Below are positions 31,805 through 49,098 of a stretch of 64,000 nucleotides of DNA, piece after piece. A program made the translations under genes and the position numbers. Under the pieces are notes generated by a model. That model saw only the letters and a list, made by a program, of their open reading frames with translations. It had not been told where the DNA came from and did not search any database. The stretch spans positions 124,001-188,000 of IMG/VR virus record IMGVR_UViG_3300046542_000248. One strand, 5' to 3'. This stretch comes from a virus. Position 1 is the stretch's first letter; every line of letters begins with the position of its first letter.

Positions 31805-32542
31805 ATGAGTGATGTTGCTAATAAGCTTCGGCTTATAATGGAAGGTGGTCTACTATTAGAAGCACCTGAAGATAAGTATGATCTTCCAAGTGGAGGTAGT
31901 GATAAAGCACCACCTATTCCTAAGGATGATACTGCTACTGATGATACTAATAAAGGAGGTGATACTACAAATACCGATGGAAACGAAAATACCGATGATA
32001 ACAAAAGTACTGACCCGACTGATCCTTCTACCAGTGATGATAATGCTGGCACTGATGACGATGCTGGCGGGAATTATGATCTTGATGACGACAGTTCTGA
32101 TGACGATAGTGGTACTGATGACGCCCCTATCACTTCTGATACTGGAGATGCTGACACTACTGGGACTGAGGATACGGCGGCTACTCCACCGGCACCGAAA
32201 GTTGGAGAACTCTTAAACATTGATCCTAAAGCTAGAGCTATCCTCATTTATAATAACTTTGAGAGATATCGAGATCTTAGGGATGATACTAGTAGATTAA
32301 TTAGTGAACTTTCAGAATTTGTTCCTACTAATGATGATATCAGATTGGTAGTAAATACTACTATTGAAAAGGGAACTGATCTTGTAAATAAACTCACTGA
32401 TTATATTTTATATAAGTACTCTGATAATTCTTATGAAATTAACTATTATAATTTTATGCAATTTATTCTGGAGAAGCGTCTACTAGGCGAACTTTATGCT
32501 AATATCATTAAGTCCTCATCTCAGGTCAAAAAGAATAAATAA
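31805..32542 (+). CDS. Acidic scaffold-like / internal head protein
   Basis: 245 residues, ATG behind TAGGAGGTGCCAGA. Three parts: an N-terminal helix NKLRLIMEGGLLLEAPE; a long disordered stretch (about residues 30-135) made mainly of D, T, G, S and N with almost no hydrophobic residues; and a folded helical C-terminal third. Acidic, helical, low-complexity proteins just upstream of the capsid gene are typical of scaffold or core proteins. The N-terminal motif recurs in the proteins at 35609 and 48592, suggesting a shared capsid-targeting or cleavable propeptide. No catalytic motif. Confidence 0.7.
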   Translation: MSDVANKLRLIMEGGLLLEAPEDKYDLPSGGSDKAPPIPKDDTATDDTNKGGDTTNTDGNENTDDNKSTDPTDPSTSDDNAGTDDDAGGNYDLDDDSSDDDSGTDDAPITSDTGDADTTGTEDTAATPPAPKVGELLNIDPKARAILIYNNFERYRDLRDDTSRLISELSEFVPTNDDIRLVVNTTIEKGTDLVNKLTDYILYKYSDNSYEINYYNFMQFILEKRLLGELYANIIKSSSQVKKNK

Positions 32543-32637
32543 AAAAATAACTTCGAGAGAAGCAACATAAAATCGAGGTTTTAGAAAAACCAACAAAGAA
32601 TAAATATTTTAACTTACTCTTAAGGAGGAATTTCAAA

Positions 32638-34281
32638 ATGGCTAATCGCGACTTTCTTGAATTGTCCATGGGTATGACTACTGCTTCCGATCCTGCGGTT
32701 TCGAACTTCTATGCGAAACTGTTTGAATCTCATGGTGGTAATGTTTCTGGTGACTTGGCTAGTATTTTCAAAAGCAAAGAATCCGCACAATCTTTCTTGG
32801 AATCCGTAAACGAGGTTTTGGCTGAAAGCACTTACGAAGGTCAAGGTCTTGCGAATTCCATCTTGCGTGAAGATGCTGCAGCTCGTGCAGTGTCCATGCA
32901 AAACGTAGTAAACGAGATGCTTACTGAAGCAACTCAACAAGGCCTATCGGCTCTTAAACCGATCTCCTTGACATCTTTCGGGTTCCAAATCCGTTCGTAT
33001 GTTAAAGCAGTTATGCATCGTGCAGTTAAAACGATTCAAGCTGAGCGTCCAAGTTTCAAAATCACTGAGCGTAAGCAATACGTGATCGACATTGCTGGTA
33101 ACAAACATTATTTCACTGATGCATTCAACCGTAACTCGGATTTGGTGAACAACCTTCATCAAAAATTCGATTTCACAGTTACTGCACCAACAACGGCTTA
33201 TGATATCTTCACATCCGGTTCGATCGACAAGCGTAACAAGCTTGGAATCGACGTAGTTCTAAAATCTTTCACTGGTGTTAAAACCGATGGTACGACTGCT
33301 GAAGTTGCTGGCGATTTGAAAATCGTTGGACGCAACCGTCAGATCGACATCGAAACTGGTCGTTTCAGCGTTGATGTAACAATCGGACCTGAATTGACTA
33401 AAGCTACAATCATGGGCGAGATCGACTTCGAAGCTGCTGTTCTTACAAGCATCTCCGCAACTTCTTCCCGTGTTAAAACAGTAACTTTCGGTGCTCGTTT
33501 GTCTTCCGAAACTCATTTGAAAGCACTTCAAACTGGTTTCGAACACAAACACACAAACGTTGCTATTCCAGACGGCGCACACATCGAAGTGAACCCATCC
33601 GTTGAGTTCCTTGATGATGTAACTCGTATGACTGGTATCAACGTACTTGAAGAGTACACAAATCAAATGGGTCAATTGGTTGAGCAGTTGGAAGACCGCA
33701 CAATCTATGAGGCTCTTAAGGATCTTGAATCCCAAGCAATCCTTGCAAAAACTTTCAATGTAACTCCGGATGCGAGCTTCTCCCTTGGTCGTGAAGAATG
33801 GCTTCGTCGTGAGTTCCACCCGTTCATTGAGCGTATTTGTATCCGTCTTAAAGCTGAACTTCAGCTTGATGATTGCCACTTCCGTGTAGTTGGTAACCCG
33901 ATTGATATTCGTGTACCAAATGCATCCGGCGAGCAATACATCTTCCGTCGTAACCAGGATATGACTGGTGCTTCGCAAATCAACTATGATTTCGCGGTAA
34001 TGAGCACTGGTAACACTGTGTTCTACCTGTCTACAGATCGTGTAGCACCAGGTAAAATCTATGTTAACCTTATCCCTAACAGCATTCAAAACAACATCAT
34101 CACAGTTAACCACTACCGTTATGCTAACTATGTTAGCAACAAATACCGTAGCTCGGTTAACCCAGCCCTTCCGGCTATCATGGTGTCCAGCCGCTACCAA
34201 ACTAAGGAATACAATCCTGTTATGGCGGTTATCACTATGGACAATAACTACAGCGACTTCTACACTGGCAGATACGCATAA
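32638..34281 (+). CDS. Major capsid protein
   Basis: 547 residues behind TTAAGGAGGA. The gene has the GC-richer codon choice of very highly expressed genes. Region 110-150 (FQIRSYVKAVMHRAVKTIQAERPSFKITERKQYVID) fits the start of a HK97-fold gp23-type capsid protein, and the C-terminal ASN...IMVSSRY-type segment is also consistent. The first 100 residues are helical and glutamate-rich (EVLAESTYEG, ANSILREDAA, NEMLTEATQQ) and probably form a delta-domain that the prohead protease removes; LTE-A at residues 95-98 is a candidate cleavage site. Position beside scaffold, protease, portal and terminase supports the call. Closed by a strong terminator. Confidence 0.85.
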   Translation: MANRDFLELSMGMTTASDPAVSNFYAKLFESHGGNVSGDLASIFKSKESAQSFLESVNEVLAESTYEGQGLANSILREDAAARAVSMQNVVNEMLTEATQQGLSALKPISLTSFGFQIRSYVKAVMHRAVKTIQAERPSFKITERKQYVIDIAGNKHYFTDAFNRNSDLVNNLHQKFDFTVTAPTTAYDIFTSGSIDKRNKLGIDVVLKSFTGVKTDGTTAEVAGDLKIVGRNRQIDIETGRFSVDVTIGPELTKATIMGEIDFEAAVLTSISATSSRVKTVTFGARLSSETHLKALQTGFEHKHTNVAIPDGAHIEVNPSVEFLDDVTRMTGINVLEEYTNQMGQLVEQLEDRTIYEALKDLESQAILAKTFNVTPDASFSLGREEWLRREFHPFIERICIRLKAELQLDDCHFRVVGNPIDIRVPNASGEQYIFRRNQDMTGASQINYDFAVMSTGNTVFYLSTDRVAPGKIYVNLIPNSIQNNIITVNHYRYANYVSNKYRSSVNPALPAIMVSSRYQTKEYNPVMAVITMDNNYSDFYTGRYA

Positions 34282-34301
34282 GAAGATAGTTAGCTAGAAG
34301 A

Positions 34302-34335
34302 TTCCCAGCGGTTTCGGCCGCTGGGAGTTTTTATT
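34302..34335 (+). terminator. Rho-independent terminator of the capsid gene
   Basis: CCCAGCGG and CCGCTGGG form a perfect 8-bp GC-rich stem with a TTTCGG loop, followed by AGTTTTTATTT. Confidence 0.92.
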
Positions 34336-34389
34336 TGATTTTAAGAATAGAACTTAATATAAATATGACTAATTTAAGGAGGAACGTCC

Positions 34390-35580
34390 GTGAACAAATT
34401 CGTATTTCAATTTCTAGCAAGTATGTTAGATGAGTTGAGACACAATCAACGTAATCCAAAAGATACAATTGATCGTATCAAAAATACTCTTAATAACGAG
34501 ATCTCTATTCCTTGTATTAATGTAGTGGTTAATAAATCTGCTACTGCTCAAAACTTCTATGGGATGATTGTATTCCCTAAGACTATTCTATCTGATCAGA
34601 AAGGTATTGAGATCAAGAGTTATGTAGTTGAGATTCAACAACAGCTCTTGGATGTACTAACTGGTCAACAACTTGCTGCTATGCTTATCCATGATCTATC
34701 TCATAACGTAATGACTTATACTGCGATTGAAAGATTCAAAGCAGCTATCTACCATGCATGTAAAATGTCGAATATGAAAGTAATTGACATCATGTATAAT
34801 ATTGATAGCAAAGCTCGTGATCTTGCATTGCTTGATATCGCAAACCGTTCTTATAAAGATCCAGTAGTTCCTGATACTGAGATGTATGAAGCAGACCGTA
34901 TCCTAGTTGATATGGGAATCTGCGATTACTTCAACTCAGCTATTCAAACTATTGCGAGAGAAGTAGAAGAATTCGATCTATCTAATCCTGATGATCAATA
35001 CGTAGCTGATACCTATATTGCTACCATGCTGATTAAAATTGTCATGGAAAAAGCAAAAGGTATGACTCGTCAGTATCAATGGCATAAACAATTCGTAGAG
35101 AAAACCTACGATACTAATATCTTCAAAATGTTCCCTTCGATTGATATCGAATTGAAAGAGGAACAGTTCGGACAACGTATCTCCGAGATTGAGGATCTTA
35201 AACCGTATGAACTTTCAATGCTGCAAGAAACTACTCTTGCTTATATTGAGAGTAAACAAAAGTTGAATGAAGCTTCTCTTATTATCGAGAGCGTATTTAA
35301 GCAAAAACGTCCTAATACTACAGCTCTGCAAAAAGAAATTGATATCATCACTTTCAAAATGCAGAATATGGCATCTAACTATGAGAGACTGTATCTTCTT
35401 GATCGGGTATATGATAGTATCTACCTTATCGAGAAGTATCTTGATCAGAATCCTGAAGATGAGGTTATCAATGGATACTTTAAGAAGTTCCTCGATCTTC
35501 CTCAAGTAATGAAAGATATGAAACCTTCCAAAAAACAATACGGCGTATTCATTGAATATCCCGCTGGTTATGAAGGCTAA
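34390..35580 (+). CDS. Structural-module protein with degenerate M48-like motif
   Basis: 396 residues, GTG start behind AAGGAGGAACGTCC. The segment LTGQQLAAMLIHDLSHNVMTY has the layout of the zinc-peptidase helix (LxxxELxAxLLHExxHN), but the catalytic Glu is Asp: H101-D102-x-x-H105. Proteins with such peptidase-like domains occur among jumbo-phage virion genes. The later half is helical and acidic. Activity is doubtful because of the E to D change. The position directly after the capsid gene points to a virion or assembly role. Confidence 0.65.
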   Translation: MNKFVFQFLASMLDELRHNQRNPKDTIDRIKNTLNNEISIPCINVVVNKSATAQNFYGMIVFPKTILSDQKGIEIKSYVVEIQQQLLDVLTGQQLAAMLIHDLSHNVMTYTAIERFKAAIYHACKMSNMKVIDIMYNIDSKARDLALLDIANRSYKDPVVPDTEMYEADRILVDMGICDYFNSAIQTIAREVEEFDLSNPDDQYVADTYIATMLIKIVMEKAKGMTRQYQWHKQFVEKTYDTNIFKMFPSIDIELKEEQFGQRISEIEDLKPYELSMLQETTLAYIESKQKLNEASLIIESVFKQKRPNTTALQKEIDIITFKMQNMASNYERLYLLDRVYDSIYLIEKYLDQNPEDEVINGYFKKFLDLPQVMKDMKPSKKQYGVFIEYPAGYEG

Positions 35581-35608
35581 TATATAATAACAAGAGGCGG
35601 TGCAATAT

Positions 35609-35878
35609 ATGTCAGTTGAACAGAATTTAAAGATGATTTTAGAAGGTACTTATATTTCGGAAGCTACATTATACGGTAGTCCGAAAGATAAACAAGCTGA
35701 GATTGAACATATGCAAAGTGTCATAGCAGGTTACGATCGTGCTATTCAACAAGTTAAAGATAATCATTCTAGGCATAATGATCCCGATGGTGATATCAAA
35801 GGACTTGAAGAGAAAAAAGAAAAAATGCAGGCACTTATTGAAAAGGTAAAAACGGGAGTTATCCACGCTCATCGTTAA
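35609..35878 (+). CDS. Small head protein with shared N-terminal motif
   Basis: 89 residues from ATG 35609 (GAGGCGG upstream; GTG 35600 is in frame but too close). It begins EQNLKMILEGTYISEA, closely matching the N-terminal helices of the proteins at 31805 and 48592. The rest is a single long charged helix (IEHMQSVIAGYDRAIQQVKD, KGLEEKKEKMQALIEKV), likely a coiled coil. A small scaffold or internal head protein fits the context. Confidence 0.65.
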   Translation: MSVEQNLKMILEGTYISEATLYGSPKDKQAEIEHMQSVIAGYDRAIQQVKDNHSRHNDPDGDIKGLEEKKEKMQALIEKVKTGVIHAHR

Positions 35879-35891
35879 TTTCTCTATGTTC

Positions 35892-35938
35892 CAAAAAAAA
35901 AGAAGAGTATGCGAGATAATCGCATACTCCTTTTTACG
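35892..35938. terminator. Bidirectional terminator
   Basis: GAGTATGCGA at 35905-35914 and TCGCATACTC at 35920-35929 form a perfect 10-bp stem, flanked by an A-run on the left and a T-run on the right. It serves the convergent genes on both sides. Confidence 0.9.
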
Positions 35939-35939
35939 T

Positions 35940-36599
35940 TTAAGATTTAAAGAATTTGTGAATAGGTACGGTAATGTTATTAACACCAACTTCTCTTGGC
36001 ATGTGATATTGACTCGGATCTGATGCAGATGTAAATTTAATAGATCCAATATCAATTTTAGCTAGAGATACAACTTTGTCAAATAGATCTTTTAATTCTA
36101 CAAATTCTAATATATCAAATTGTAATCTAACATAATCCATATCTTCTTCACATTCAAATTCTCCATCAAAATCTATGAAACTTTGTCCTTGGTAGTTGAG
36201 ATAAACTTGAAGTGAATGTAATTGAATTATATCTACAGGAGGATTAGAGTCGTCACAACTATTCAAATATTCTGGAGTTTTAAACCAAGCACTTAATTTC
36301 TCTTCTATTTCAGAATAGAATTTAGGACGGAAATCATTATCCTCGAATGACATCAATTCAGGGAATAATTTAACATAAGCTAAAGGTTCACACTTCTCTG
36401 CAAAATCATCAATACCCGCATAATCAGCAGCTTTATAAATAGAACCAACTCTTCTTATTTTAATATTACCACGATGACTTTCTGTCATATCATGGATAAG
36501 ATAACTATCATCATGTAGATCGACGATAGTTATATCACCACCAGTTGGATAGCAAGGATAAATCAAAGTTGTTTTCAAATCTTCTACATTTTTATTCAT
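35940..36599 (-). CDS. Hypothetical protein of minus-strand island (second gene)
   Basis: 219 residues, ATG behind GGAGGAATTTAAA. A mixed alpha/beta soluble protein with an acidic middle (DFDGEFECEEDMDY) and no known motif. It follows the gene at 36612-37130 by 12 bases and shares an identical ribosome-binding cassette. Both are driven by an early-type promoter on the minus strand, so they are probably early genes rather than virion components despite their position. Confidence 0.65.
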   Translation of the reverse strand: MNKNVEDLKTTLIYPCYPTGGDITIVDLHDDSYLIHDMTESHRGNIKIRRVGSIYKAADYAGIDDFAEKCEPLAYVKLFPELMSFEDNDFRPKFYSEIEEKLSAWFKTPEYLNSCDDSNPPVDIIQLHSLQVYLNYQGQSFIDFDGEFECEEDMDYVRLQFDILEFVELKDLFDKVVSLAKIDIGSIKFTSASDPSQYHMPREVGVNNITVPIHKFFKS

Positions 36600-36611
36600 T
36601 TTAAATTCCTC

Positions 36612-37130
36612 CTATAATTTATCAAATAGACGTTCCATAGTTTCTGAAATTGTACCTTCTGATTCAACTCGTGCTATCTTTGATATCCCTTCTACGCAAT
36701 AAACACGAGGCCATAATGATGAATATAATACTTTAGTTACCTTTTTAAGATTTAAAGCTTTCTTTGCTCGACGAAGAATACGACGTTCACGGCGAGTATT
36801 AGTTTTCTTAGGAGTAAGTATTTTACATCCATGAAATATGTAATACGTTGACATCCTACCAATACTACCAACTCGATAATATCCTGGCTTGCTATCAAGT
36901 AATACTTGTACCGTACCCAATTCAAGTTTAAGTCGATTGATAACTCCTAGCGGATTAAATAGTATTTCGTTAGCTGGCAGCTCAGGTTTAATTACATCCC
37001 TAACTCCATAATGCCCAGTCAATAGAATGCTTGGAATTCTTTTTCTAGTATCAGTAGATATACTTGCTGCTAAAGCATCATCAATGTTTACTGGCTCGGA
37101 ATCACGGATAGTTATTTTTTTGTCAGTCAT
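36612..37130 (-). CDS. Hypothetical protein of minus-strand island (first gene)
   Basis: 172 residues; the start ATG at 37130 is placed behind GGAGGAATTTAAA. A KITIRDSEPVNIDDALA start is followed by IPSILLTGHYGVRD and a markedly basic patch (NTRRERRILRRAKKALNLKKVTKV) before a short C-terminus. The basic patch suggests RNA, DNA or ribosome contact. Unknown family. First gene behind the minus-strand promoter at 37167-37182. Confidence 0.65.
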   Translation of the reverse strand: MTDKKITIRDSEPVNIDDALAASISTDTRKRIPSILLTGHYGVRDVIKPELPANEILFNPLGVINRLKLELGTVQVLLDSKPGYYRVGSIGRMSTYYIFHGCKILTPKKTNTRRERRILRRAKKALNLKKVTKVLYSSLWPRVYCVEGISKIARVESEGTISETMERLFDKL

Positions 37131-37162
37131 TTTAAATTCCTCCAAAATAGTATAGTATATTA

Positions 37163-37182
37163 CGAGTAAATAATATATATTT
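37163..37182 (-). promoter_or_regulatory. Early-type promoter on the minus strand
   Basis: Read on the minus strand the sequence is AAATATATATTATTTACTCG, a full match to the element. It lies 33 bases upstream of the ATG at 37130. It is the only copy within the structural module. Confidence 0.75.
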
Positions 37183-37209
37183 GTGGCTTTTTAAACAAAC
37201 AGTAGTCTT

Positions 37210-37250
37210 TTTATAGTTAAAACACCTGTATAATAACTTTTAACTATAAA
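37210..37250. repeat. 13-bp perfect inverted repeat upstream of terminase
   Basis: TTTATAGTTAAAA at 37210-37222 and TTTTAACTATAAA at 37238-37250 are exact reverse complements separated by 15 bases. The site lies between the minus-strand promoter and the terminase start, overlapping the likely leader of the terminase gene. It could be an operator, a leader hairpin or part of a late promoter. It is AT-rich, so a DNA-binding site seems as likely as an RNA fold. Confidence 0.7.
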
Positions 37251-37268
37251 GGACGGTGAAATAAGCAT

Positions 37269-39431
37269 ATGTCACTCAAAAGACCCTATCGAAAGTCTGA
37301 AGAAGAATACCATATACATTGGGAAACGACTAATACGTCATTCCTTAAAGTAGCATTACTATTAAAGAATGCTGGTGTTGAGAACTATCACTTTATGCTT
37401 AGACTTTATGATGATGATCTAATGCATATTGACCCATATGATCCAGATATTAGTCCTGAGGATATGGGTAAAGTTTTACAGGAAGTTGCAATTAATTTTT
37501 TCTATTTTATACGTGAAGTTGCAAGGATTCCTGAAGAAGGAAGTAGTACTGAGGTTGGTGGTGGTACACCGTTTATGCTTCATCGGGGCAATCTGGCTCA
37601 GATGTGGGCTTTCGAACATAACATATCTCACTTCTTGGAGCTACCGAGACAGTTCGGGAAGACAACAGGGGCTGTACAGAGATATTTATGGCAATTCTCT
37701 TATGGCACCACATCTTCTACTACTATCTTTATGAATATGGATAAAGCGGCATCTGTTGCCAACTTAACTCGTTTGAAAGATAGTCGATCATTATTACCTG
37801 AGTATATGCAAATGGTATTTACTTTAGATGACAAAGGTCAACTGAAGAAAGATACTGATAACGTAAATGAAATCAAGAATAAGAAATTAAAGAATAATAT
37901 CATCACTAAAGCTGGTGCTCGTAACGTTCAGTCTGCCGAGAGGGTTGGTCGGGGTCTTTCTGTTCCTGCACTATGGTTCGATGAGTTTAACTTTATCCTT
38001 CTTAATGAAACAATCCATGCCGCTGCTATCCCAGCATTTTCTAAGGCTTCTGAAAATGCTCAGAAAAATGATAAACCATTTGCCATCTGTATCACTAGTA
38101 CACCTGGTGATCTTGGTACAGCACATGGTGCATATGGATATGATCTTAAAGAAAAAGCAGGTCGTTTCAATGAAAATCTGTATGATCTAGATCCGGACGA
38201 AGTAGAAACATGGTTACGTAAGAACTCAAGTAACGGAATGCTGTACATCTCCTTCTCATTCTATCAATTAGGTAAGACAATGGAATGGTTTGAAGAACAA
38301 TGTAGACGTATGAATCATAACTGGATGAAAATCCGTCGGGAACTTCTTCTACAATGGAATAAAGCTTCTCAAAACTCTCCTTTCCTTCCTGAAGATATTG
38401 ATGAACTTGATACAATGGCAGTTCCATATTTCAAAACTATTAGAATCAATAAATACTATGATGTACTACTCTACAAAGAACTTGATCCTTACAGACGCTA
38501 TATTATAGGTGTGGACGTTTCGAAGGGTGTGGGTCGAGATTCGACAGCAGTTGCTATCGTAGATTCCCAAACCTTAGAAGTATGTGGTCTATTTATTAAT
38601 AATACTATTAGGTCAAAAGAACTCAAACGATTCTTAATGAGTTTAGTTCTCGATCATCTTCCTAACTCAGTACTAGTCATAGAGAGTAATAATATTGGTG
38701 ATGCAATTATTGAGGATTTAAAAGCTTCTCCTCTTAAACATCACTTATACTACGACTTCGTTACTCGTCTTGCTGAAGATAGACGTAAAGATGGTCAAGT
38801 ACAAAAACAACCTAAAACTCGTATGATCTATGGTCATGAAGTAACTTCTGCTACTCGTCCTAAGATGATGGATCTATTACTTCAATTCGTTTCCAAACAC
38901 AAGAAGAAAATTGCTGTTAGGGAATTAGTTGATCAAATCCGTCACTTGGAGTATAAGAATGAAGAAAGAATTGACCATGCTGCTGGACATCATGATGATG
39001 CCGTCTTTGCGTACTTAGCGTGCATATACATCATGTTCTATGGTAAGAATCTTCCGAGATTCGGTCTATATAATGCTTTCAACTTTGAAGGTGGTGAGAT
39101 CGAAGATAGAGATCCACCTGAAGATAAAGTTGCTAAAGTATTTAAGAAAGCCAAGCTTCAACGACTCATTAAATCCAATCCTTATCTTGCTGGACTCTTC
39201 GAAGATCTTATATTCATCGACGATGTTAATAAAGCAATTGATAGAGAGATGTATGATCTTGAAGCTAGTGATGATGATAAAGGAAGTTTATTTACTTCCG
39301 ATGGAATGGCAGGTTCGAAAATCAAGAAGAATGCATTCAGAGAACTAAATGCTAGATCATCCAATCGTATAAACGGTAGTGCTGGTTCTGTATTTGGTCT
39401 AGGTGATAGATACTCTGGAAGCTCTTGGTAA
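37269..39431 (+). CDS. Terminase large subunit
   Basis: The packaging motor: ATPase plus nuclease. Residues 125-133 (LPRQFGKTT) are Walker A. ALWFDEF at 234-240 is Walker B with the catalytic Asp-Glu. ITSTPG at 275-280 is the coupling motif. The nuclease domain has GVDVSKG with D416, a VLVIESNNIG strand near 468-477 and HHDDAVFAYLA with D576/D577, the RNase H-like metal ligands. Total 720 residues, long like other jumbo-phage terminases; T4 gp17 is 610. The C-terminal 110 residues are acidic and then glycine/serine-rich. No small subunit is recognised nearby. The start lies 12 bases behind AAAGGACGG. Confidence 0.95.
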   Translation: MSLKRPYRKSEEEYHIHWETTNTSFLKVALLLKNAGVENYHFMLRLYDDDLMHIDPYDPDISPEDMGKVLQEVAINFFYFIREVARIPEEGSSTEVGGGTPFMLHRGNLAQMWAFEHNISHFLELPRQFGKTTGAVQRYLWQFSYGTTSSTTIFMNMDKAASVANLTRLKDSRSLLPEYMQMVFTLDDKGQLKKDTDNVNEIKNKKLKNNIITKAGARNVQSAERVGRGLSVPALWFDEFNFILLNETIHAAAIPAFSKASENAQKNDKPFAICITSTPGDLGTAHGAYGYDLKEKAGRFNENLYDLDPDEVETWLRKNSSNGMLYISFSFYQLGKTMEWFEEQCRRMNHNWMKIRRELLLQWNKASQNSPFLPEDIDELDTMAVPYFKTIRINKYYDVLLYKELDPYRRYIIGVDVSKGVGRDSTAVAIVDSQTLEVCGLFINNTIRSKELKRFLMSLVLDHLPNSVLVIESNNIGDAIIEDLKASPLKHHLYYDFVTRLAEDRRKDGQVQKQPKTRMIYGHEVTSATRPKMMDLLLQFVSKHKKKIAVRELVDQIRHLEYKNEERIDHAAGHHDDAVFAYLACIYIMFYGKNLPRFGLYNAFNFEGGEIEDRDPPEDKVAKVFKKAKLQRLIKSNPYLAGLFEDLIFIDDVNKAIDREMYDLEASDDDKGSLFTSDGMAGSKIKKNAFRELNARSSNRINGSAGSVFGLGDRYSGSSW

Positions 39432-39440
39432 TAAGATTTA

Positions 39441-39482
39441 AAAAAGCTCAGGGAAATCCATCCCTGGGCTTTCTTGTTTTTA
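39441..39482 (+). terminator. Rho-independent terminator
   Basis: AAGCTCAGGGA pairs with TCCCTGGGCTT (one G-T pair) and is followed by TCTTGTTTTT. Confidence 0.85.
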
Positions 39483-39556
39483 TATAAAAATATTATACCT
39501 AAACCATACTATTAGAAGATATTGACAAAATTTGTAAGTAGAAGGAGCGTTTTTAG

Positions 39557-40330: not shown

Positions 40331-40331
40331 A

Positions 40332-41816
40332 ATGGAAAGAGAAAAACTTGAGCTTGTAGGTAAAGAAATTATGGGAGAAATTGGAGTTCCAGTAACTTCA
40401 AAGCCCATCTCCGATACAGAAACAGCACCTTTCAATGTACTGGCAAATAATTTACCGGCAAACCAAGAAGCAACTCCTGTTAAAGGATTTGATGGTGAAG
40501 GTGAACTCTTCGAAGGTAAAACTCGTGAAGATATTCTTGAAGAACTTGGTAAAACTGGTGTTGGTATCGAAACCGCTACTGGTGTAGTAATGACTGATGC
40601 TATCACTGGTGAAAAACTTGTTGGTAATGCAGGCGATCTAGTTGATATTAACTCACTGCAAGATATTCAACCTGAAAACATCAAGCGTCATCTTGCTGGT
40701 ATCATTAAGCAGAACTTGACTACTTTGATTCCTGAAGATCTTACTGAAGAAGATTCAACTGCAATCATTGCAGATATCGAAGCAAAGATCATTAACCTTG
40801 ATCGTAGACAGATTAAGGAAATGAGTCCGATTGAAATCAAAAACATCTACGGTAATGATGTATATGATCAAATCAAAAAGTTCAATCCGAATAACCATGC
40901 TCAACTGGCAAAGAAACTTCTTGTTGACTTCCGTGACGGTATCGTAGAATACGAAGGCGTTGTGGATTCAATGGAAGAAATCAACCGCCACATGAAATTC
41001 TTCCAAGATATTGATGTGGATGGAGTTCAAGCGGGTATCAAGGAGCAGTTGGAAACTGATACTGCAACTTACCCTACTGAATTCCACAAGTATCGCAAAT
41101 ACTTGGAATTATACCTTGAATATCTTGATGGTCGCACTGATTACACAGATAACCGTTTCATGGAAGAAGAGAAACGTGTTACTAATGATAAAATCTCTGC
41201 GATGACTGATGCTCTTACCTTTAAACAAATCTTCGAGAAATGTGAAAACGGTAAGCAAAAGCTGCTGAAAGATTTCCGTGATTCGGTTCTACTGAATAAA
41301 ACAATCTTTGACTTCGTTGGGAAATTAAACAATGATAGCACTATCAATGTTTCCTTCCCTATGCCAAAGAACTTCAGTCAGAAAACAAATGTACCGCAAA
41401 TCCTTACATCGGTATGGGTTAGCTTCCTTGAAATGTCTATGATCCGTGGACAATTCCCAGTAGTTAAAGCCCTTACTTCTAATGAATATACTGAAATGAC
41501 GCAAATTCTTAGAGGTGAACTGAAAGTTCAATCCACTAAAGAAGATGAAATTGTTATGGTTGATAAAATCGACATTAAACAATTCATTGCTGATAACGGT
41601 ATTAAAGTTGATCACATTGTAGAAGCTCGTAAAGCTGCTATTGCAGTGTGCTACATTATTGCCCGTACTTTCAAATCAACTACTCTAAACAATAGTCAGT
41701 ACAATAAGTACGTACTATCTTATACAATGAATGTGCTTACACAAAGCATGTATAACGATGGTTGCAACGCATTATTGATTGAGCTAGTTGAAGGTGTTAA
41801 AACTCGTATTATGTAA
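40332..41816 (+). CDS. Structural-module protein, 494 residues
   Basis: ATG 40332 lies 9 bases behind GAGGAG; ATG 40323 is too close. The N-terminal 110 residues are low-complexity and probably flexible (repeated T, E, G, V), followed by a long helical region with several coiled-coil-like segments and a compact end (YVLSYTMNVLTQSM). Unknown function; coupling to the upstream acidic gene and position before the sheath genes suggest a virion or assembly protein. Confidence 0.65.
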   Translation: MEREKLELVGKEIMGEIGVPVTSKPISDTETAPFNVLANNLPANQEATPVKGFDGEGELFEGKTREDILEELGKTGVGIETATGVVMTDAITGEKLVGNAGDLVDINSLQDIQPENIKRHLAGIIKQNLTTLIPEDLTEEDSTAIIADIEAKIINLDRRQIKEMSPIEIKNIYGNDVYDQIKKFNPNNHAQLAKKLLVDFRDGIVEYEGVVDSMEEINRHMKFFQDIDVDGVQAGIKEQLETDTATYPTEFHKYRKYLELYLEYLDGRTDYTDNRFMEEEKRVTNDKISAMTDALTFKQIFEKCENGKQKLLKDFRDSVLLNKTIFDFVGKLNNDSTINVSFPMPKNFSQKTNVPQILTSVWVSFLEMSMIRGQFPVVKALTSNEYTEMTQILRGELKVQSTKEDEIVMVDKIDIKQFIADNGIKVDHIVEARKAAIAVCYIIARTFKSTTLNNSQYNKYVLSYTMNVLTQSMYNDGCNALLIELVEGVKTRIM

Positions 41817-41826
41817 TAAACAAACA

Positions 41827-41868
41827 AAAAGTCGCAACCGGAGAAATCTGGTTGCGATTTCTTTATTT
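41827..41868 (+). terminator. Rho-independent terminator
   Basis: TCGCAACC at 41832-41839 pairs with GGTTGCGA at 41850-41857; TTTCTTTATTTTATTTTTT follows. Confidence 0.88.
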
Positions 41869-41914
41869 TATTTTTTAAACATTTCATTAGTAGCTGGAGA
41901 AAGGAGGGACTATT

Positions 41915-42670
41915 TTGTCTATTTTAGATAGAACGTATTTTAAAAAGGTTGATACTACTATATTCTTGGAAACTTACAAGTGTGAAATTTATGTACCTGA
42001 TAGCTATTTCGAGAGTCGGCTTGCTGTTCAAGATGGAGAAATGTATAATCTATTCTTTATTTTGAAGTATAAATTATATCATAGTGAGAAGGATAGTGAG
42101 TCTAAGAATTTTGGTGAATTCTTATTCCCATCTATGGCAACCACTAAACCTGATGATGTTCGTACCGCAGAGCTTGATATCTACGGAGAACTTGAGAAGT
42201 TTCGGATATTTACCTACTATAAAGGATCACCTATTCTGAATAATAGTATGATTGTACAAACTTCAGTAATGGTGGAACGATTTGTTAGTCTAAGAAATGA
42301 TGGCAAAATTAGAGCACCTTATTGGAAAGTACCTGATATTGAGAATAAGATTCAAAAGGTGCACAGTACAAAAGTAAATGTACCACAGTATATTGAGCAA
42401 TTATCAATCTCTGAGGTATATCGGGATAAGAATGATTATTCCAAACCTGCTAGGTTAATTATGACTACTAAGGATAGGGATAATGCCAAAGTAAAAGCTC
42501 TTAACATGAGGGAGAACTCTGCGTTTACATCAACTTTAGCAGGTGTCAGTTTCGAGGATGTTAAGTCCATGTTAACTGTAGCTGATAATAGAGATGATAA
42601 ACAATCGACAACACTTAGCCCAATTGAAAGAGTAATCAAAGGTGTGAAGGAAACTTCAACACTTAGATAG
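41915..42670 (+). CDS. Tail-module hypothetical protein
   Basis: 251 residues, TTG start behind GAAAGGAGG. A beta-rich N-terminal half (FLETYKCEIYVPDSYF, YNLFFILKYKLYHSEKD) is followed by a linker and a helical C-terminus. It directly precedes the tail sheath gene, the usual place of tail completion or terminator proteins in myoviruses. The assignment is positional only. Confidence 0.6.
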   Translation: MSILDRTYFKKVDTTIFLETYKCEIYVPDSYFESRLAVQDGEMYNLFFILKYKLYHSEKDSESKNFGEFLFPSMATTKPDDVRTAELDIYGELEKFRIFTYYKGSPILNNSMIVQTSVMVERFVSLRNDGKIRAPYWKVPDIENKIQKVHSTKVNVPQYIEQLSISEVYRDKNDYSKPARLIMTTKDRDNAKVKALNMRENSAFTSTLAGVSFEDVKSMLTVADNRDDKQSTTLSPIERVIKGVKETSTLR

Positions 42671-42720
42671 TGCCAACAATCAATTAAATATTAATTACTT
42701 TCTAAGGAGGTTTTTTGGAG

Positions 42721-44505
42721 ATGTTTGATAAAATCGTAATTGTGGATCAATCCACTGTAACCACAACGACTCCAGCAGCACTATCACCTGATAGACCTCG
42801 GGCATACATTCCTATCTTTTCACCAAAAGGATATGGAAAAGACACTGAGGTAAAATTGTTCCAAGCTAACAGTCAAGGTTCGCTTATTGACTATTATGGA
42901 ACGCCGAACATGCTTACAACTCTTGCGCCTCTTTATTATGCGCATGAATTCCTTCGTGGTGGTGGCGATGTTTACATTCGTCGTATTACTTCCACAACTG
43001 CTGCTTTTGCCCATGCGGTATTGGTAGCTAAATTCCGTGCACCTATTGAGGGTGTAAACCTTGGTAAAGTTGAGATCGTATTCGAAGTTCGCACACTTCA
43101 AGATGCAACAGACCTTGAAGATATGGTGAGTGACGCTGAAGCTTTGCTTACAACTACAGCTGATGCTGATGGATATAAAGTTTATCCTATTGCTATCACT
43201 GGGTTGAACTGGGCAGGTAGCGAAGGTAACAAGTATACTTTCCGCTTACTTCCTAACACTTCTCTTGACAAACAAATCGACCAAAAAGCATACAACTTGG
43301 AATCCCGTGCTTCGTCTTCAGGTTCTGCTAAGACGATTGGATTCACTGCTGATGCTGATGCGGTTATCGACGGTCAAAGTATTTATGCTAATGATATCTT
43401 TGAAGAGCAGTCTCAAAATGTATTCTTCAAAGTTCTTAGCACATACAATACTTTCTTGACTGCTTTAGCAACTTTCCTTCCTGCTGGTGAAAGCACTAAA
43501 CCGGATATTTTCTTCGGTAAAGATAAAACCGGCATTCCGTATTCTAAGTATATCATCTTGGATACTTCTGTAGATTTTACTGCTTCTGGCGGTATTACTC
43601 TAGCTGGTGGTAGCGATGGTAACTTTGCTGCAAATGTTTCTACTCGTGAAGATAACATGATGGATCAATACGTTGCATCCTTCGGTGAAATTACGAGCCA
43701 AATGCTGGAGAACGAATACAAGTATTTTATCGACTATGTATATGACTTCGGTGCTCCACAAACTGTTAAAGACGCTATCGTAGCATTTGCTCTACGTCGT
43801 AAGACTACAAAAGCAATTGTTGATACTGGTCGTGCTAACAAAACTGCAACATCGGTTCTTGCGGCACGGACTACTGGCGGTATCACTTACAGCAATGAGA
43901 AAGTTGTTGTATCTGGTGGTATCGGTACTTACCGTGATCCATTTACCAATAAGAAAGTAGTTATGCCTTTGTCATTCTTCGAGGCTTATGCTACTCCAAA
44001 CCATATCACTACATTTGAAGGTGGAGCACGTCCATTCGCTGGTGCGTCTTACACTTACAGTAACATCATTGCTGGCACGTATCTACCTGTCATCTATGAT
44101 GAAAATAGTGATGCTGCAAAATCTTTACTTGATCACCAAATCAACTTCGCTATGGAAGATTCGACTGGTTATCAAGCATTCCATCAAGGTACATCCTTGA
44201 AATCCAAATCACTTGGTCTTGGTGAGCGTAACAACGTACACCTTCTCCACTTGATGATGCGTTCTTGCTTGCTCGAAGCGAAAGCTGAGCGTTGGAACTT
44301 CGCTGAAGATTCCGATATCGAACGTTATGGTGCCCGTATTCAACAACGTTTGGAAATTCAAATGGCTGGTAAAGTCGGAGAATTGAAAATCCAAACAGCT
44401 CGTGCCGGAGCTTTCGGTGAAGATCGTAACCGTGTTAACGTATTCTTGACTGTTCGCTTCAAGAACATCAACAAAGGAACTACGTTCACATTCACAGTTA
44501 TTTAG
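42721..44505 (+). CDS. Contractile tail sheath protein
   Basis: 594 residues from ATG 42721, 10 bases behind AAGGAGG; TTG 42715 is in frame with 4-base spacing and remains possible. N-terminal arm VDQSTVTTTTPAAL and RAYIPIFSPKGYG, then a GGGDVYIRRI core strand, a large variable insertion, and the C-terminal sheath domain with RWNFAEDSDIERYGARIQQRLE, GKVGELKIQ and the last strand FLTVRFKNINKGTTFTFTVI. This C-terminal layout is the hallmark of the phage/T6SS sheath family. Codon use is that of a highly expressed gene in the C-terminal third. Followed by the tail tube gene after 30 bases. Confidence 0.92.
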   Translation: MFDKIVIVDQSTVTTTTPAALSPDRPRAYIPIFSPKGYGKDTEVKLFQANSQGSLIDYYGTPNMLTTLAPLYYAHEFLRGGGDVYIRRITSTTAAFAHAVLVAKFRAPIEGVNLGKVEIVFEVRTLQDATDLEDMVSDAEALLTTTADADGYKVYPIAITGLNWAGSEGNKYTFRLLPNTSLDKQIDQKAYNLESRASSSGSAKTIGFTADADAVIDGQSIYANDIFEEQSQNVFFKVLSTYNTFLTALATFLPAGESTKPDIFFGKDKTGIPYSKYIILDTSVDFTASGGITLAGGSDGNFAANVSTREDNMMDQYVASFGEITSQMLENEYKYFIDYVYDFGAPQTVKDAIVAFALRRKTTKAIVDTGRANKTATSVLAARTTGGITYSNEKVVVSGGIGTYRDPFTNKKVVMPLSFFEAYATPNHITTFEGGARPFAGASYTYSNIIAGTYLPVIYDENSDAAKSLLDHQINFAMEDSTGYQAFHQGTSLKSKSLGLGERNNVHLLHLMMRSCLLEAKAERWNFAEDSDIERYGARIQQRLEIQMAGKVGELKIQTARAGAFGEDRNRVNVFLTVRFKNINKGTTFTFTVI

Positions 44506-44535
44506 TAGTAAAATAAATGAAGGAGGTAAGTACTC

Positions 44536-45345
44536 ATGGCAGATAATATCCAAAATTCATCGCTATGGTTGGGCGTTCCCAACCTTAGCAAGGACCAATT
44601 GAAGAACTTTGACCCAGCTTATACTGGCTACGTTCATATTTTCGTAGTTCGTGTACCTGAGGTTTTGGTGAAGCATGATACAGTATTTGGTACTAACCAC
44701 GGAAAGAACTTCAAAGCTATCTTTGAACGTACTTCCACAAGCTTCAGCGGTATTCCTGAATTGACAGTTAACTACGTTGACCAAGTTCACGGATTTGCCG
44801 ATCGTAAAGTTCCACATGCAACGACAATCGAAAGTAATTTCGATACATTCACAGTACGTTGCTTGGAATTCAAAAAGCTCCCAGTATATAACATGCTGCA
44901 AGAGTGGATGTACTTGGTTGGTGGCGATGAGTCGTCTAAAATCAAGGATTACAAAGGTATGGCGGCTGATATCGCAGGTGGTTATTCCCTTGAGAATCAT
45001 ACGGCTGCTTTCTTGGTATGTAACTCGAACCCTGAGTTGACTGAAATCCAAGGTCGCGCGCACTATATCACGGCAGCAATGCCTACTACTCTTCCACGCG
45101 AAATCTTCCATCAAAATGCTGGTGAAATCGGCATCGTTGAAGGACATGATATCGCAATGAAGGGCGTTCTTAAATGGGGTTCGGAGATCAATACTAAAGC
45201 TCTTGAATACCTGACTGAACGTAAGACTGTTATCAACTATTATGCGGCTTCGGCTGTTCGTGGTGGTAAACCTACTACGAATCCATTCCACCCAGGTGGA
45301 ACGTTGAATGGTGAAACAATTGCAGCTCAAACGTCCATGATGTAA
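44536..45345 (+). CDS. Tail tube protein
   Basis: 269 residues behind GAAGGAGGTAAGTACTC. The order sheath-tube and the content fit a myovirus tube protein: an N-terminal region with YTGYVHIFVVRVPE, the beta-barrel segment TSFSGIPELTVNYVDQVHGFADRKVPHA (a typical tube pattern), then LPVYNMLQEWMYLV and a C-terminal glycine-rich tail. Codon choice is strongly biased as in the capsid gene, as expected for a protein needed in hundreds of copies. It ends at a strong bidirectional terminator facing the portal gene. Confidence 0.88.
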   Translation: MADNIQNSSLWLGVPNLSKDQLKNFDPAYTGYVHIFVVRVPEVLVKHDTVFGTNHGKNFKAIFERTSTSFSGIPELTVNYVDQVHGFADRKVPHATTIESNFDTFTVRCLEFKKLPVYNMLQEWMYLVGGDESSKIKDYKGMAADIAGGYSLENHTAAFLVCNSNPELTEIQGRAHYITAAMPTTLPREIFHQNAGEIGIVEGHDIAMKGVLKWGSEINTKALEYLTERKTVINYYAASAVRGGKPTTNPFHPGGTLNGETIAAQTSMM

Positions 45346-45395
45346 CAAAAATATTCCCATACTCCATTAAGTTGGAGTATGGGAAGTTTTGTTTG
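45346..45395. terminator. Bidirectional terminator
   Basis: CCCATACTCC at 45356-45365 and GGAGTATGGG at 45374-45383 form a perfect 10-bp stem between tail tube (+) and portal (-), with A-rich and T-rich flanks. Confidence 0.9.
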
Positions 45396-45397
45396 TT

Positions 45398-47740
45398 TTA
45401 AACGATTGAATCATCGGTACTAGTGGTAGTAGTATCACCAGTTGCTGCTGTAGATGCAGTTGTAATAGCAGTTTGCAGACCTTCTTTAATCTTAAACTCT
45501 CTACTTCTCTTGAGCATCTCATCAATACCAGCCCAATCGTAAGTAAGATTATCACGGATGAATTCTCTTTTAAAGATTTTCTTCAAGAGTTCATCATCTT
45601 CCATGATCTGAGTATCAGCAAATGTTTCAGCAAGATCCTTAATAGTATTCATAAGTTCATTAGTAATTTGCATTGCCATACTTCTTGATGGGATAAGAGA
45701 TGCATGAATAGATTCAATCTCATCCTTAGTAAGATCAAGTTCATATGTCATGATATGACGCATAAGTTTAGTAAGAGGAGTATTAAGCTCTGCTTGAGCA
45801 TGAGCACTAGAAGATGCTACATCGAGATTTGCCATAGATAGAGTCTTAGCAAATTCAACTTCTTCTGATACGTCAACTACTACCGATGGTACGTTAAATG
45901 ACATGATAATAGATTTCATAATCCATTGTAGCATTGGTTCATCCATATCTACTTGCTGACCAGAGATAACCTCTGGTTTGATAGGAACTTCACCATCTTG
46001 AGATTGAGGTAAGAATAGATCAACTGTGGAACCAATTGAACCAATGATACCTGTAATAGTGCCAACGTCTGACCATCTGATTTGAGACTGCTGAACAGCT
46101 TCGATAGCTTCCATTACAGAATCCTCAATATCATTAGATAGACCATTACTAATAGTCCATACAGTTCTATCAGAACCTTTACGAACTTTAGTAAGAATAT
46201 TACTCAGAATAAGAAGCATGTAAAGTTTCAAGAAGAAGAGAGCATTCTTCATAATAGATCCTTGTTGACGACGGAACTCAATCACATCGTCAGGATGAAG
46301 AATGATAATATCTCGTGCTTCTCTGTGAATTTGACGATCACGGAGGAATTCATATAGAACATCCATTCCGTCAAAGTTTGCTTCTAAGAATTTTGGAGAA
46401 ATGTTTGAGAGTACAGAGTTACCAATACTTCTGATAATTTGATTCTCAACCATTTTAAGATTTTGATCACTATAATCAGTGGAGGAATTCTTGTAGAATG
46501 AGAAATTCGATTGGAAATTGCTACGAAGATTCATTCTAAGAGCTTCGTCACGACGTTCCTCGATATAGATATAAGCAACAATCGTATCTTTGATTCTTAG
46601 AGGATATACTCTCGCAGGATCAAGACGTTCAATCTTACACCCAAGGATTTGTAACTTATCATACTCATCCTTCTTAGATGTATTAAGCAATCCTTCAGCA
46701 GCGGCATCATCATTAGGAGTTTTAATCTTAGTGATTTTTTCAAACTGCTCATCGTATGATGATTCAATTAAGAATTCATCCTTAGTATTGATAACTGCTT
46801 CAACTAAAGCAGAATCATAACCAATACGTTTATTAGATTTGTATACTTTGATACTGCTCAAGTATTTATTGACTGATTCATTCAAACCAGTCATGGAAGC
46901 TTTCTGTTTCTCAGTATCCATGGCTTTGAATTTTTCCTGCAATTTGTCTTCGAAAGCATCCATAACAGAAGACTCAGTTAGAATCTTAGGATGTTTACTC
47001 TTATCATTATCAAGAGTGATCAACGATGATTCACGAACCAGAGAAGCTCTACCGTTAGTACTTAGCTTATCTTGTTTGATCGCTTCAACGATTGCTCTAT
47101 ATGGTACTACAGTAATATATTCATTACCAATAACCAAATAGTTCTCCACAATCGTTTTAACTTTCAAGTTAAGCTCATATTTCTCCTTAACTTTTTTAGC
47201 AAGAGATTTCTTTGCCTCATCTTCAATATTGTATTCAAGAGAGAAGATTTCAGCAGTGATTGCTTCTGGAGTTACGATACTATTTAGAAGCAAATCAATA
47301 ACACGAGAAACTTGAGGAATAGCTCTACGGAAGATTTCATAATCTTGTAGAGTTTCATACAGTTTGTCATTCATAAGGATTTGATTCTTTAACTCTACGA
47401 ACAATCCTTTATTATTAGAGATGGCATCAAAGATACTATCGGGTTGATTACCGTTAGCACCTTTTTTACCTTGTGCATTTTGAATCTTATTCTTTCCAGT
47501 TAAACCAAAACCATTAATTCTGGAATTATTGTAGATACTTCCTTGAACTGTAGAGTTAAGAGAGGTTTCATCCTTCTTAGACAACTCATCCAGTTTATTA
47601 AGCATTCGCTCAGTATCAAACGAATCCTTGCTCACACCATAAGTTGAAAAGTTGGTGGATCTTGCTAACTTATTAAGGTTATCAAGAACTCCACCTAGAC
47701 TCTTCGATAGACTAGTATCGGGTTTCTTCTTGTCAGCCAA
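45398..47740 (-). CDS. Portal protein
   Basis: 780 residues, TTG start behind GGAAAGGGATGA. The start MADKKKPDTSLSKSLGG is flexible to about residue 105. After that comes a T4 gp20-like portal core: a helix-rich wing (YEIFRRAIPQVSRVIDLLLNSIVTPEA), a stem region with RVYPLRIKDTIVAYIYIEERR, the D-R-Q-I-H-R-E-A segment, a conserved-looking region TKVRKGSDRTVWTISNG, and a C-terminal crown with coiled-coil helices ending in a T/S-rich tail. Length is larger than T4 gp20 (524) but in the jumbo-phage range. The upstream gene on the same strand ends 2 bases before. The portal forms the dodecameric DNA entry ring. Confidence 0.85.
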   Translation of the reverse strand: MADKKKPDTSLSKSLGGVLDNLNKLARSTNFSTYGVSKDSFDTERMLNKLDELSKKDETSLNSTVQGSIYNNSRINGFGLTGKNKIQNAQGKKGANGNQPDSIFDAISNNKGLFVELKNQILMNDKLYETLQDYEIFRRAIPQVSRVIDLLLNSIVTPEAITAEIFSLEYNIEDEAKKSLAKKVKEKYELNLKVKTIVENYLVIGNEYITVVPYRAIVEAIKQDKLSTNGRASLVRESSLITLDNDKSKHPKILTESSVMDAFEDKLQEKFKAMDTEKQKASMTGLNESVNKYLSSIKVYKSNKRIGYDSALVEAVINTKDEFLIESSYDEQFEKITKIKTPNDDAAAEGLLNTSKKDEYDKLQILGCKIERLDPARVYPLRIKDTIVAYIYIEERRDEALRMNLRSNFQSNFSFYKNSSTDYSDQNLKMVENQIIRSIGNSVLSNISPKFLEANFDGMDVLYEFLRDRQIHREARDIIILHPDDVIEFRRQQGSIMKNALFFLKLYMLLILSNILTKVRKGSDRTVWTISNGLSNDIEDSVMEAIEAVQQSQIRWSDVGTITGIIGSIGSTVDLFLPQSQDGEVPIKPEVISGQQVDMDEPMLQWIMKSIIMSFNVPSVVVDVSEEVEFAKTLSMANLDVASSSAHAQAELNTPLTKLMRHIMTYELDLTKDEIESIHASLIPSRSMAMQITNELMNTIKDLAETFADTQIMEDDELLKKIFKREFIRDNLTYDWAGIDEMLKRSREFKIKEGLQTAITTASTAATGDTTTTSTDDSIV

Positions 47741-47742
47741 TG

Positions 47743-48477
47743 TTATTCATCCCTTTCCGGTAAGTAGAGTACATTGAATACGTTTATTATCTGGTATTCA
47801 GATTTATTGACTGTCGTTGTTGTTAAAAATACCGAAGATTTTTCATCACTGTAAGGGATACATTTAACTAATGCAGTATCACCTTTAGTGACATTTTGGA
47901 ATACTGATTTAGAAAGTCTTGTGAAGAATCTTTCATCATCAATAACAAGAGGTACTTCAGAAGCAGCAATATCTTCATAGATCTTAAGTTTAAACTCTTT
48001 ACTTTCTTTATGATTCATATCAGTAATAGAGTTGAAGATAGATACTGTCTTCTTATATAAATCGGATTTCTTTAGTTTTATCTTAGTTGCAAAATATGTA
48101 TCTTTCTTATAAATATTATCTTTGATCTTTACGAATGCTTTATCTGCATACATTACTTCAGGAGCAGCGCAATCATATAAGAATTCAATCTCTTTATCGT
48201 CGATAACAATATCAACGATTGTGAAATGCTTGTCCATGAATTTGAAAGTTGCAGGATGAATATCAAATACAAAAGGGAAAAACTCAGTAACGTTTTTCTC
48301 TAACTTTTCAGTGAATGTCAAGATTGTCATGATTCCTTCATGATATGTACTATACACACCTTTAGAGAAGTTAAATTCAGAAGCTTTAAATTTATTTAAG
48401 GTATCTACGATTTTCATAAATCCTTTATATACAGCAATTCCATCAATTTTAGTAAAGAGTCCAGTAAGTTCAGCCAT
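47743..48477 (-). CDS. Hypothetical protein upstream of portal
   Basis: 244 residues, ATG behind GAGAGGGCTGATATGA. A beta-rich protein with two similar-sized halves (TFKFMDKHFTIVDIVIDDKEIEF and ...RFFTRLSKSVFQNVTKGDTALVKCIPY). It ends with VNKSEYQIINVFNVLYL. The two-lobed beta pattern could reflect a clamp-like or structural fold, but I find no diagnostic motif. It is co-transcribed with the portal gene, 2 bases apart, so a head or packaging role is likely. Confidence 0.6.
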   Translation of the reverse strand: MAELTGLFTKIDGIAVYKGFMKIVDTLNKFKASEFNFSKGVYSTYHEGIMTILTFTEKLEKNVTEFFPFVFDIHPATFKFMDKHFTIVDIVIDDKEIEFLYDCAAPEVMYADKAFVKIKDNIYKKDTYFATKIKLKKSDLYKKTVSIFNSITDMNHKESKEFKLKIYEDIAASEVPLVIDDERFFTRLSKSVFQNVTKGDTALVKCIPYSDEKSSVFLTTTTVNKSEYQIINVFNVLYLPERDE

Positions 48478-48591
48478 TCATATCAGCCCTCTCATTTTAC
48501 TTGTCTATTAATGGTTCAAGGCTTTATAGATTTAAATTATGGTTGAACAGAGTATTAAAGAAACTACTTTATTTATAAGGAGGACTTTAAG

Positions 48592-49098
48592 ATGGGAATT
48601 TTACAAGATCGTCTTAAATCATTACTTGAAAATTCGTACATTCAAGAATCTAGCAAAGAACCGGCCCCTATTGGTGAAGCTGAAGTCACTGATGAAATGA
48701 TGGCTGAAGCTACACTAGCTATGATTTTGGAAGCTACTCAAGCGTATGCTCTTGAGGAAGCTCAATTATTTATTTCCGAAAATGCACACCTTTTGGTGCG
48801 CGACGGTTTGCTCACTGAAGATGCTGCCGGTCAATCCTTCATGGTACTTTCCCGTGATGCTCAGCGTAACAAAGCAGAATCAATGCTTCGTATGCAAATG
48901 GCTCGCAAAGCCAAAGATCCACGTCAATTTAAAATTGCAGCAATGCGCCGTACTATCAAACGTCTTAGCGCTGAAATTCATAACGATTCCCGTTATAATG
49001 AAGCAAAGACTATTGTGATGAAACGTCAATTCCGGTATGCTCCAGATGCTGCTGGAATGTCGGCTAAACGTACACAAAGCCAATTCAAATTGAAATAA
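48592..49098 (+). CDS. Internal head protein candidate with shared N-terminal motif
   Basis: 168 residues behind ATAAGGAGGACTTTAAG. The N-terminus LQDRLKSLLENSYIQES is the third copy of the motif seen at 31805 and 35609. A glutamate/alanine-rich helical stretch follows (EVTDEMMAEATLAMILEATQAYALEEAQ), with several L/I-x-E sites suitable for prohead protease cleavage. The C-terminal half is basic (RRTIKRLSAEIH, MKRQFRY, SAKRTQSQFKLK). An acidic, cleavable propeptide with a basic DNA-binding remainder is the classic layout of an internal head protein. Biased codon use suggests high copy number. Confidence 0.65.
   Translation: MGILQDRLKSLLENSYIQESSKEPAPIGEAEVTDEMMAEATLAMILEATQAYALEEAQLFISENAHLLVRDGLLTEDAAGQSFMVLSRDAQRNKAESMLRMQMARKAKDPRQFKIAAMRRTIKRLSAEIHNDSRYNEAKTIVMKRQFRYAPDAAGMSAKRTQSQFKLK

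Follow-up and report, generated by a model that had tools for sequence, protein, structure and literature searches.

A 64,000-base window (bases 124001-188000 of the 246,901-base IMG/VR virus record IMGVR_UViG_3300046542_000248) contains three genes, within or adjoining a head module, whose products begin with the same short N-terminal leader, and the whole record encodes 18 such proteins. The record is a 247-kb jumbo phage distantly related to AR9, PBS1 and phiR1-37. We propose, with a probability of roughly 0.75, that the leader is a capsid-targeting propeptide carried by packaged proteins. We computed the shared leader, its position behind the start codon, its presence in relatives, the S77-type protease, the alignment of the capsid cut site and the enrichment of cut-like sites; from these we infer packaging, cleavage, a binding partner and ejection. 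Coordinates are those of the window unless called genome coordinates (window coordinate + 124000).

A preliminary description of this DNA had pointed to three alike N-termini, and these are present: MSDVANKLRLIMEGGLLLEA (ATG 31805), MSVEQNLKMILEGTYISEA (ATG 35609) and MGILQDRLKSLLENSYIQES (ATG 48592), each with a Shine-Dalgarno-like stretch 5' of the start. Its count of three was too low. The genome-wide search that it had suggested found 18 leader-starting proteins, 15 of them outside the window. In genome coordinates, the window copies start at 155805, 159609 and 172592; the others start at 239212, 243152, 243487, 243825, 8303, 82504 and 239457 on the plus strand and at 197302, 222128, 221230, 220268, 219199, 218046, 117938 and 118999 on the minus strand. 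When all open reading frames (ORFs) of the genome were scanned with a score matrix, none of the 18 best places was more than a few codons away from a start codon. A profile built from the 18 leaders, run against the six-frame translated genome, matched exactly 18 places (E 1.5e-11 to 3.5e-7); since this profile contains its own matches, the independent evidence comes from the relatives.

Using a leave-one-out score matrix built from eight leaders, we obtained 23.1, 23.5 and 8.5 bits for 31805, 35609 and 48592, respectively, and the top scores of shuffled ORFs ranged from 11 to 18.5 bits across 20 rounds. Because 8.5 bits lies below the best shuffled score of 18.5, the leader at 48592 is not significant alone, nor are the weaker copies singly. 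The 48592 leader matched the profile, which itself includes it, at E 3.5e-7, and its orthologues L122, L123, L121, L133 and L108 in relatives also carry the leader. The conserved L, I and G are encoded by codons that vary among the copies, so the constraint acts on the protein. A DNA- or RNA-level element was rejected on the same ground, the conserved residues being encoded by different codons.

The leader core, L-[KR]-x-[IL]-[LMQ]-E-G, sits directly behind the start codon; in each of the 18 copies, the core Leu is residue 7 or 8. It is followed by a gap of about 2-14 residues and then, in many copies, by [IL]-x-E-[ASG]. All three leader proteins of the window have [IL]-x-E-[AS] behind the core; with the cut position marked by a slash, the cut-like sites read LLE/A, ISE/A and IQE/S in the window, and LNE/S, INE/S, LQE/S and LLE/A elsewhere. 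The pattern initially given for the leader, L-K-x-[IL]-[LM]-E-[GN]-x-[YL]-[IL]-x-E, holds for the core, which is well conserved, but less so for the [IL]-x-E end.

Eight related IMG/VR records were gathered by way of the protease or the capsid protein. All eight contain the leader, with 36 matches in total. We inspected 33 of these, leaving out two without a locus and one fragment of a match already counted. Every one of the 33 starts with a start codon that has a Shine-Dalgarno-like stretch ahead of it, and they comprise 28 distinct N-termini. In a collection of 37 leaders (one a likely false positive), 26 have [LIMVF]xE[SAGN] within about 20 residues.

A protease of the appropriate type is encoded beside the leader genes. 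The gene at 30104..30970 (minus strand) had been taken for that of a prohead protease, and its product is indeed of the Peptidase_S77 (PF03420) or T4 gp21 type, scoring 35.5 bits against a curated cut-off of 27 and matching the PHROG head maturation protease. GExxHP and FS[LM]R, which we take to provide the catalytic His and Ser of the S77 protease, are conserved across six aligned proteases. Judged from most of the aligned relatives, ATG 30970 is probably the start and TTG 30991 wrong.

The cut motif can be read from the major capsid protein (32638..34281, plus strand; PHROG major head protein, E 1.6e-50), which has no leader. It matched 20 phage records at 22-27 % identity, those of AR9/PBS1/Goe21, BpSp, the Staphylococcus S6/MarsHill types, Listeria LPJP1 and phiR1-37. 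In the GenBank record of phiR1-37, the mature N-terminus of the capsid protein is noted as Ser87; residues 84-87 are L-Q-E-S, which gives LQE/S. Aligned with this terminus, the window protein has a predicted propeptide of 97 residues (32638-32928) ending in a cut LTE97/A98. The aligned site is LTE, LME or LEE before A or S in five close relatives, LQE/S in AR9 and LQE/A in BpSp. The residue after the cut (P1') is A or S in 11 of the 12 aligned proteins and never G; for the twelfth protein, that of LPJP1, the alignment is off by one residue, and the site reads IME/S. A second note in the phiR1-37 record (NC_016163.1), for the 'structural protein sp24 precursor' g199, places the mature N-terminus at 'Asp56'. 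Residue 56 is Glu, following L-T-E55, so that the number of the note fits and the residue name does not. A cut LTE/E would agree with cutting after [LI]xE, provided that 'Asp56' means residue 56.

Sites of this kind also occur in a leader-bearing zincin (genome 8303), which has a HEIGH motif and scored 19.1 bits for Peptidase_M48, below the cut-off of 20.3. Its homologues in AR9, PBS1, Goe21 and BpSp align from residue 21-24 on, at about the predicted cut. Zincins with the leader read ILNE/AYYG (8303), LIHE/AYYG (L102) and VLNE/AYYG (L135), and those without it read MVRTLLLE/SYFG (AR9 gp051) and MINKNKLNE/DYYS (BpSp). Judging by these sequences, the [LI]xE site is kept while the sequence ahead of it is exchanged. 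This bears on a different placement of the cut, in which the leader still brings proteins to the prohead but is cleaved during maturation inside the core, at I-x-E/G, and not at the following [IL]-x-E/[AS]. The core does read [ILM]-x-E-[GN] in 18 of 18 copies, a loose fit to [LI]xE that is better conserved than the second site. We nevertheless consider a cut at this place alone unlikely, as G is never the P1' residue in the aligned capsid proteins and the leaderless zincin homologues keep the second site. In addition to the downstream cut, a second one is possible at the I-x-E-G of the core itself.

Cut-like sites are concentrated behind the leader. At residues 26-80, the 18 leader proteins have 17 [LI]xE[SA] sites in 929 residues, compared to 26 in 12,840 residues of the 258 other predicted proteins of the genome (from a simple gene call), a density nine times the usual one. 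Shuffling of residues 26-80 gave a mean of 2.35 sites and a maximum of 8, and none of 1000 shuffles was as high as 17. The control motifs [LI]xD[SA] and [LI]xK[SA] occurred 0 and 0 times in the same region of the leader proteins. Beyond residue 80, the density was at background, 1.8 per 1000 in the leader proteins and 1.9 in the others. A general N-terminal excess of [LI]xE[SA] was looked for in the proteins of AR9, phiR1-37 and MarsHill and found to be only small (3.43, 2.04 and 1.95 per 1000 at positions 4-24 vs 1.71, 1.59 and 1.87 beyond 100).

Several leader proteins lack a good site near the leader, as would suit a motif for docking or assembly that core or ejection proteins retain when mature, with the downstream [LI]xE being incidental. 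We find this quite improbable in view of the ninefold site density, its fall to background past residue 80 and the phiR1-37 record notes that put cuts after LxE. The S77 protease, LQE/S in phiR1-37, the aligned LTE/A, the unrelated bodies and the site-rich stretch instead support the earlier proposal of a capsid-targeting propeptide cut after [IL]-x-E. It needs correcting in that the targeting core and the cut site are separate, with a variable gap between them, and the nearest good site often lies farther downstream.

As had been noted for the window proteins, the leader is joined to differing bodies. We cut off the first 26 residues, compared the remainders among the 18 with phmmer and chained families at E below 0.001. 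This yielded nine body types, namely family I (eight proteins), family II (three) and seven singles (acidic 31805, small 35609, 48592, 239212, zincin 8303, 117279 and 118766), with all links between types at E 0.004 or worse. In PHROG and Pfam searches, most leader proteins could not be firmly assigned to a family, and protein searches of the phage collection with 220352 and 48592 found nothing.

In family I, the first good site is farther downstream, and [LI]xES is conserved in 8 of 9 aligned sequences just before a basic amphipathic stretch. An AlphaFold model of one family I protein (nine sequences) is mostly helical, with a mean predicted local distance difference test (pLDDT) score of 70 and low confidence in the leader part. 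Compared to viral models, its best match had E 1.3e-3, and none reached 0.001 or better; a PDB fold search with the same model found nothing (best E 0.43). Among the best 50 of 254 viral fold matches, 13 are labelled internal head protein, virion structural protein or virion protein, including proteins of 201phi2-1, Psa21, Noxifer and AR9, which we take to be giant phages; the remainder are unnamed, uncharacterised or 'phage protein'. This weak fold likeness supports, but does not prove, that the family I proteins may be internal head proteins. AR9 gp165, annotated 'virion structural protein', has a family-I-like layout.

Most bodies being unannotated, a leader on unrelated bodies would suit any sorting signal, also one directing proteins elsewhere in the infected cell, such as to the membrane, the replication compartment or an RNA polymerase complex. 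Such a destination is very improbable, because the three leader genes of the window lie within or adjoin the head module with the protease and capsid genes, and a similar layout or fold is seen in virion proteins of other giant phages. Plain paralogy, with one ancestral family whose bodies diverged until the start was the last recognisable part, would suit the eight proteins of one family and the three of another but is the hardest to credit, as the bodies of 48592, the zincin and the acidic, small cysteine and coiled-coil-like proteins have no detectable relation, leader shuffling fits better, and a targeting role is compatible with paralogy anyway.

Several observations weigh against a capsid-targeting propeptide. 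Only 17 of the 33 inspected matches in relatives have [LIV]xE[SAG] within about 18 residues past the core, and family I members often lack a good site right behind it. The 17 sites counted at residues 26-80 fall in 10 of the 18 leader proteins, and 7 of those 10 are family I paralogues, so the site counts are not independent. One orthologue of 48592 (L124) has no leader. With a 32-row profile and no positive control, the leader was found in none of six phages (AR9, MarsHill, phiR1-37, LPJP1, BpSp and Machias). In a matrix scan, no N-terminus of AR9, phiR1-37 or MarsHill scored above 8.7, compared to 10-29 for the leaders on the matrix that contains them. The fold matches of family I all have E above 0.001. 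Homology of family I to AR9 gp165, phiR1-37 g199/g202 and two MarsHill proteins was not accepted (phmmer best E 0.0014), and hhalign gave a probability of at most 6 % for the analogues in AR9, phiR1-37 and MarsHill. Finally, a protein encoded outside the window (genome 241822-242991, plus strand) has a family-I-like layout but starts with MFKDLFES. Another protein starts with MFDDLFE, and there may be a second type of short leader.

On the capsid-targeting reading, the leader core probably forms a short amphipathic helix. The prohead core as it grows, the protease or some other protein of the core would recognise it, and proteins with unrelated bodies would in this way be built into the head before the DNA is packaged. 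Once the shell has assembled, the S77 protease would cut past the next [LI]-x-E, before A or S, and long pro-regions would be cut after several such sites. The cleavage would free the mature protein, left among the packaged DNA, and part of the protein set would probably be ejected from the head into the host. A broader reading, for which the odds seem to us about even, is that one transferable label defines the whole injected arsenal, at least 18 proteins with nine unrelated bodies that would be packed, trimmed and delivered with the DNA. With the same even odds, the arsenal would include a zinc-protease-like enzyme, a small cysteine-motif protein and several coiled-coil-like proteins, and the label would list the payload of the genomes of this clade. 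If true, the head cargo of jumbo phages would be readable from sequence, and the label would mark proteins reaching the host at time zero, which would be candidates for a role in anti-defence or takeover. This AR9-like clade would then own a targeting system distinct in sequence from that of T4. The leader would also serve to tag foreign proteins for packing into very large heads, and it would make it possible to test directly whether the targeting element is distinct from the one that the protease recognises.

The acidic leader protein of the window (245 residues; 31805..32542, plus strand) is encoded directly upstream of the capsid gene. Its leader, MSDVANKLRLIMEGGLLLE, spans 31805..31861, with a predicted cut before Ala20 (31862), and its orthologues in related records keep the leader and LLE/A or MLE/A. 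By position and acidity/composition only, it may be the counterpart of phiR1-37 g134, an acidic protein in the same place that is annotated 'phage structural protein'. A protein without leader (31098..31790, plus strand), encoded between the protease and the acidic protein, is in the position of AR9 gp114, a 'virion protein'. The small leader protein (89 residues, coiled-coil-like; 35609..35878, plus strand) begins with MSVEQNLKMILEGTYISE (35609..35662; predicted cut before Ala19, 35663). Its ATG 35609 lies within a GTG-started ORF at 35600 and is preferred as the start, considering the leader spacing and the upstream AGAGGCGGTG. The third protein (168 residues; 48592..49098, plus strand) has the leader MGILQDRLKSLLENSYIQE (48592..48648), with the cut predicted to fall before Ser20 (48649). 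It also has another stretch rich in [LI]xE, and its C-terminal part is basic.

Adjoining the capsid gene, 34390-35580 (plus strand) encodes an HDLSH protein with a weak phage metallopeptidase match below the cut-off; the counterpart position in AR9 holds the zincin protease gp117. A virion structural protein (phrog_3004; 45398-47740, minus strand) is a portal candidate and has five [LI]xE[SA] sites clustered at residues 219-326; long propeptides are reported to be lost from giant-phage portals (PMC5694885, in excerpt). Outside the window, a 764-residue protein (genome 229249-231543, minus strand; window +105249) has 10 [LI]xE[SA] sites along its length, with 1.8 expected, and is a candidate core or scaffold protein degraded by the protease. 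A leader protein of 77 residues (genome 118766-118999, minus strand) has a WCSC...C pattern, is possibly metal-binding, and occurs in several relatives, there adjoining a 117279-type protein.

A description of the leader was not found in the literature searched, open-access papers without the phiR1-37 genome/proteome paper, and the PALS2 paper (PMC7982418) gave no match for processing terms. In SPN3US, the first 15 residues are the same in gp53 and gp54, a start that the authors compared with the capsid-targeting sequences (CTSs) of T4, and long propeptides are cut at several places (PMC5694885, in excerpt); 14 cut sites were reported in nine substrates (PMC10052503, in excerpt). As far as these excerpts go, the leader proteins would resemble the head and ejection proteins of SPN3US and phiKZ (gp53, gp54, gp47 and phiKZ gp93) in having several protease sites and long N-terminal propeptides. 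The SPN3US/phiKZ system differs in its S80-type protease, its AxE or SxE motifs and a start common to two paralogues only, whereas here many unrelated bodies share it. The head proteins of phiR1-37 and AR9 (capsid protein, sp24 and AR9 gp165) are similar in the capsid cut position, the [LI]xE/[SA] motif and the layout of a pro-region followed by a basic amphipathic stretch; unlike here, the leader was not found there, and homology to family I was not demonstrated.

The T4 internal proteins are a diverse defence set conserved only in the targeting sequence (PMC3012670, in excerpt). About 10 conserved N-terminal residues of IPII/IPIII bring foreign proteins into the core, and gp21 cuts off small N-terminal peptides (PMC9958956, in excerpt); in the T4 record, IPII and IPIII start with MKTYQEFIAEA. 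The leader sequence resembles neither the T4 CTS nor the SPN3US starts. On the leader matrix, the T4 internal proteins scored -7.4 to -3.8 bits and the leaders themselves 10 to 29; because the former are below zero, we do not file the leader in the T4 CTS sequence family. As in the T4-type functional class, the N-terminal stretch is common to otherwise unrelated proteins (18 proteins, nine body types). A putative protease cut motif ends the stretch in the three window proteins and follows in part of the other leaders (26 of 37 collected leaders and 17 of 33 matches in relatives by the two patterns given above). By analogy, the best reading is that the leader works like a T4 CTS outside that sequence family. 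Like the CTSs of IPI, IPII and IPIII, so far as the excerpts describe them, it would be a short N-terminal stretch on diverse packaged proteins with an [IL]-x-E site for a gp21-family protease; unlike them, it has a separate core with a variable gap before the cut and occurs on 18 proteins instead of three.

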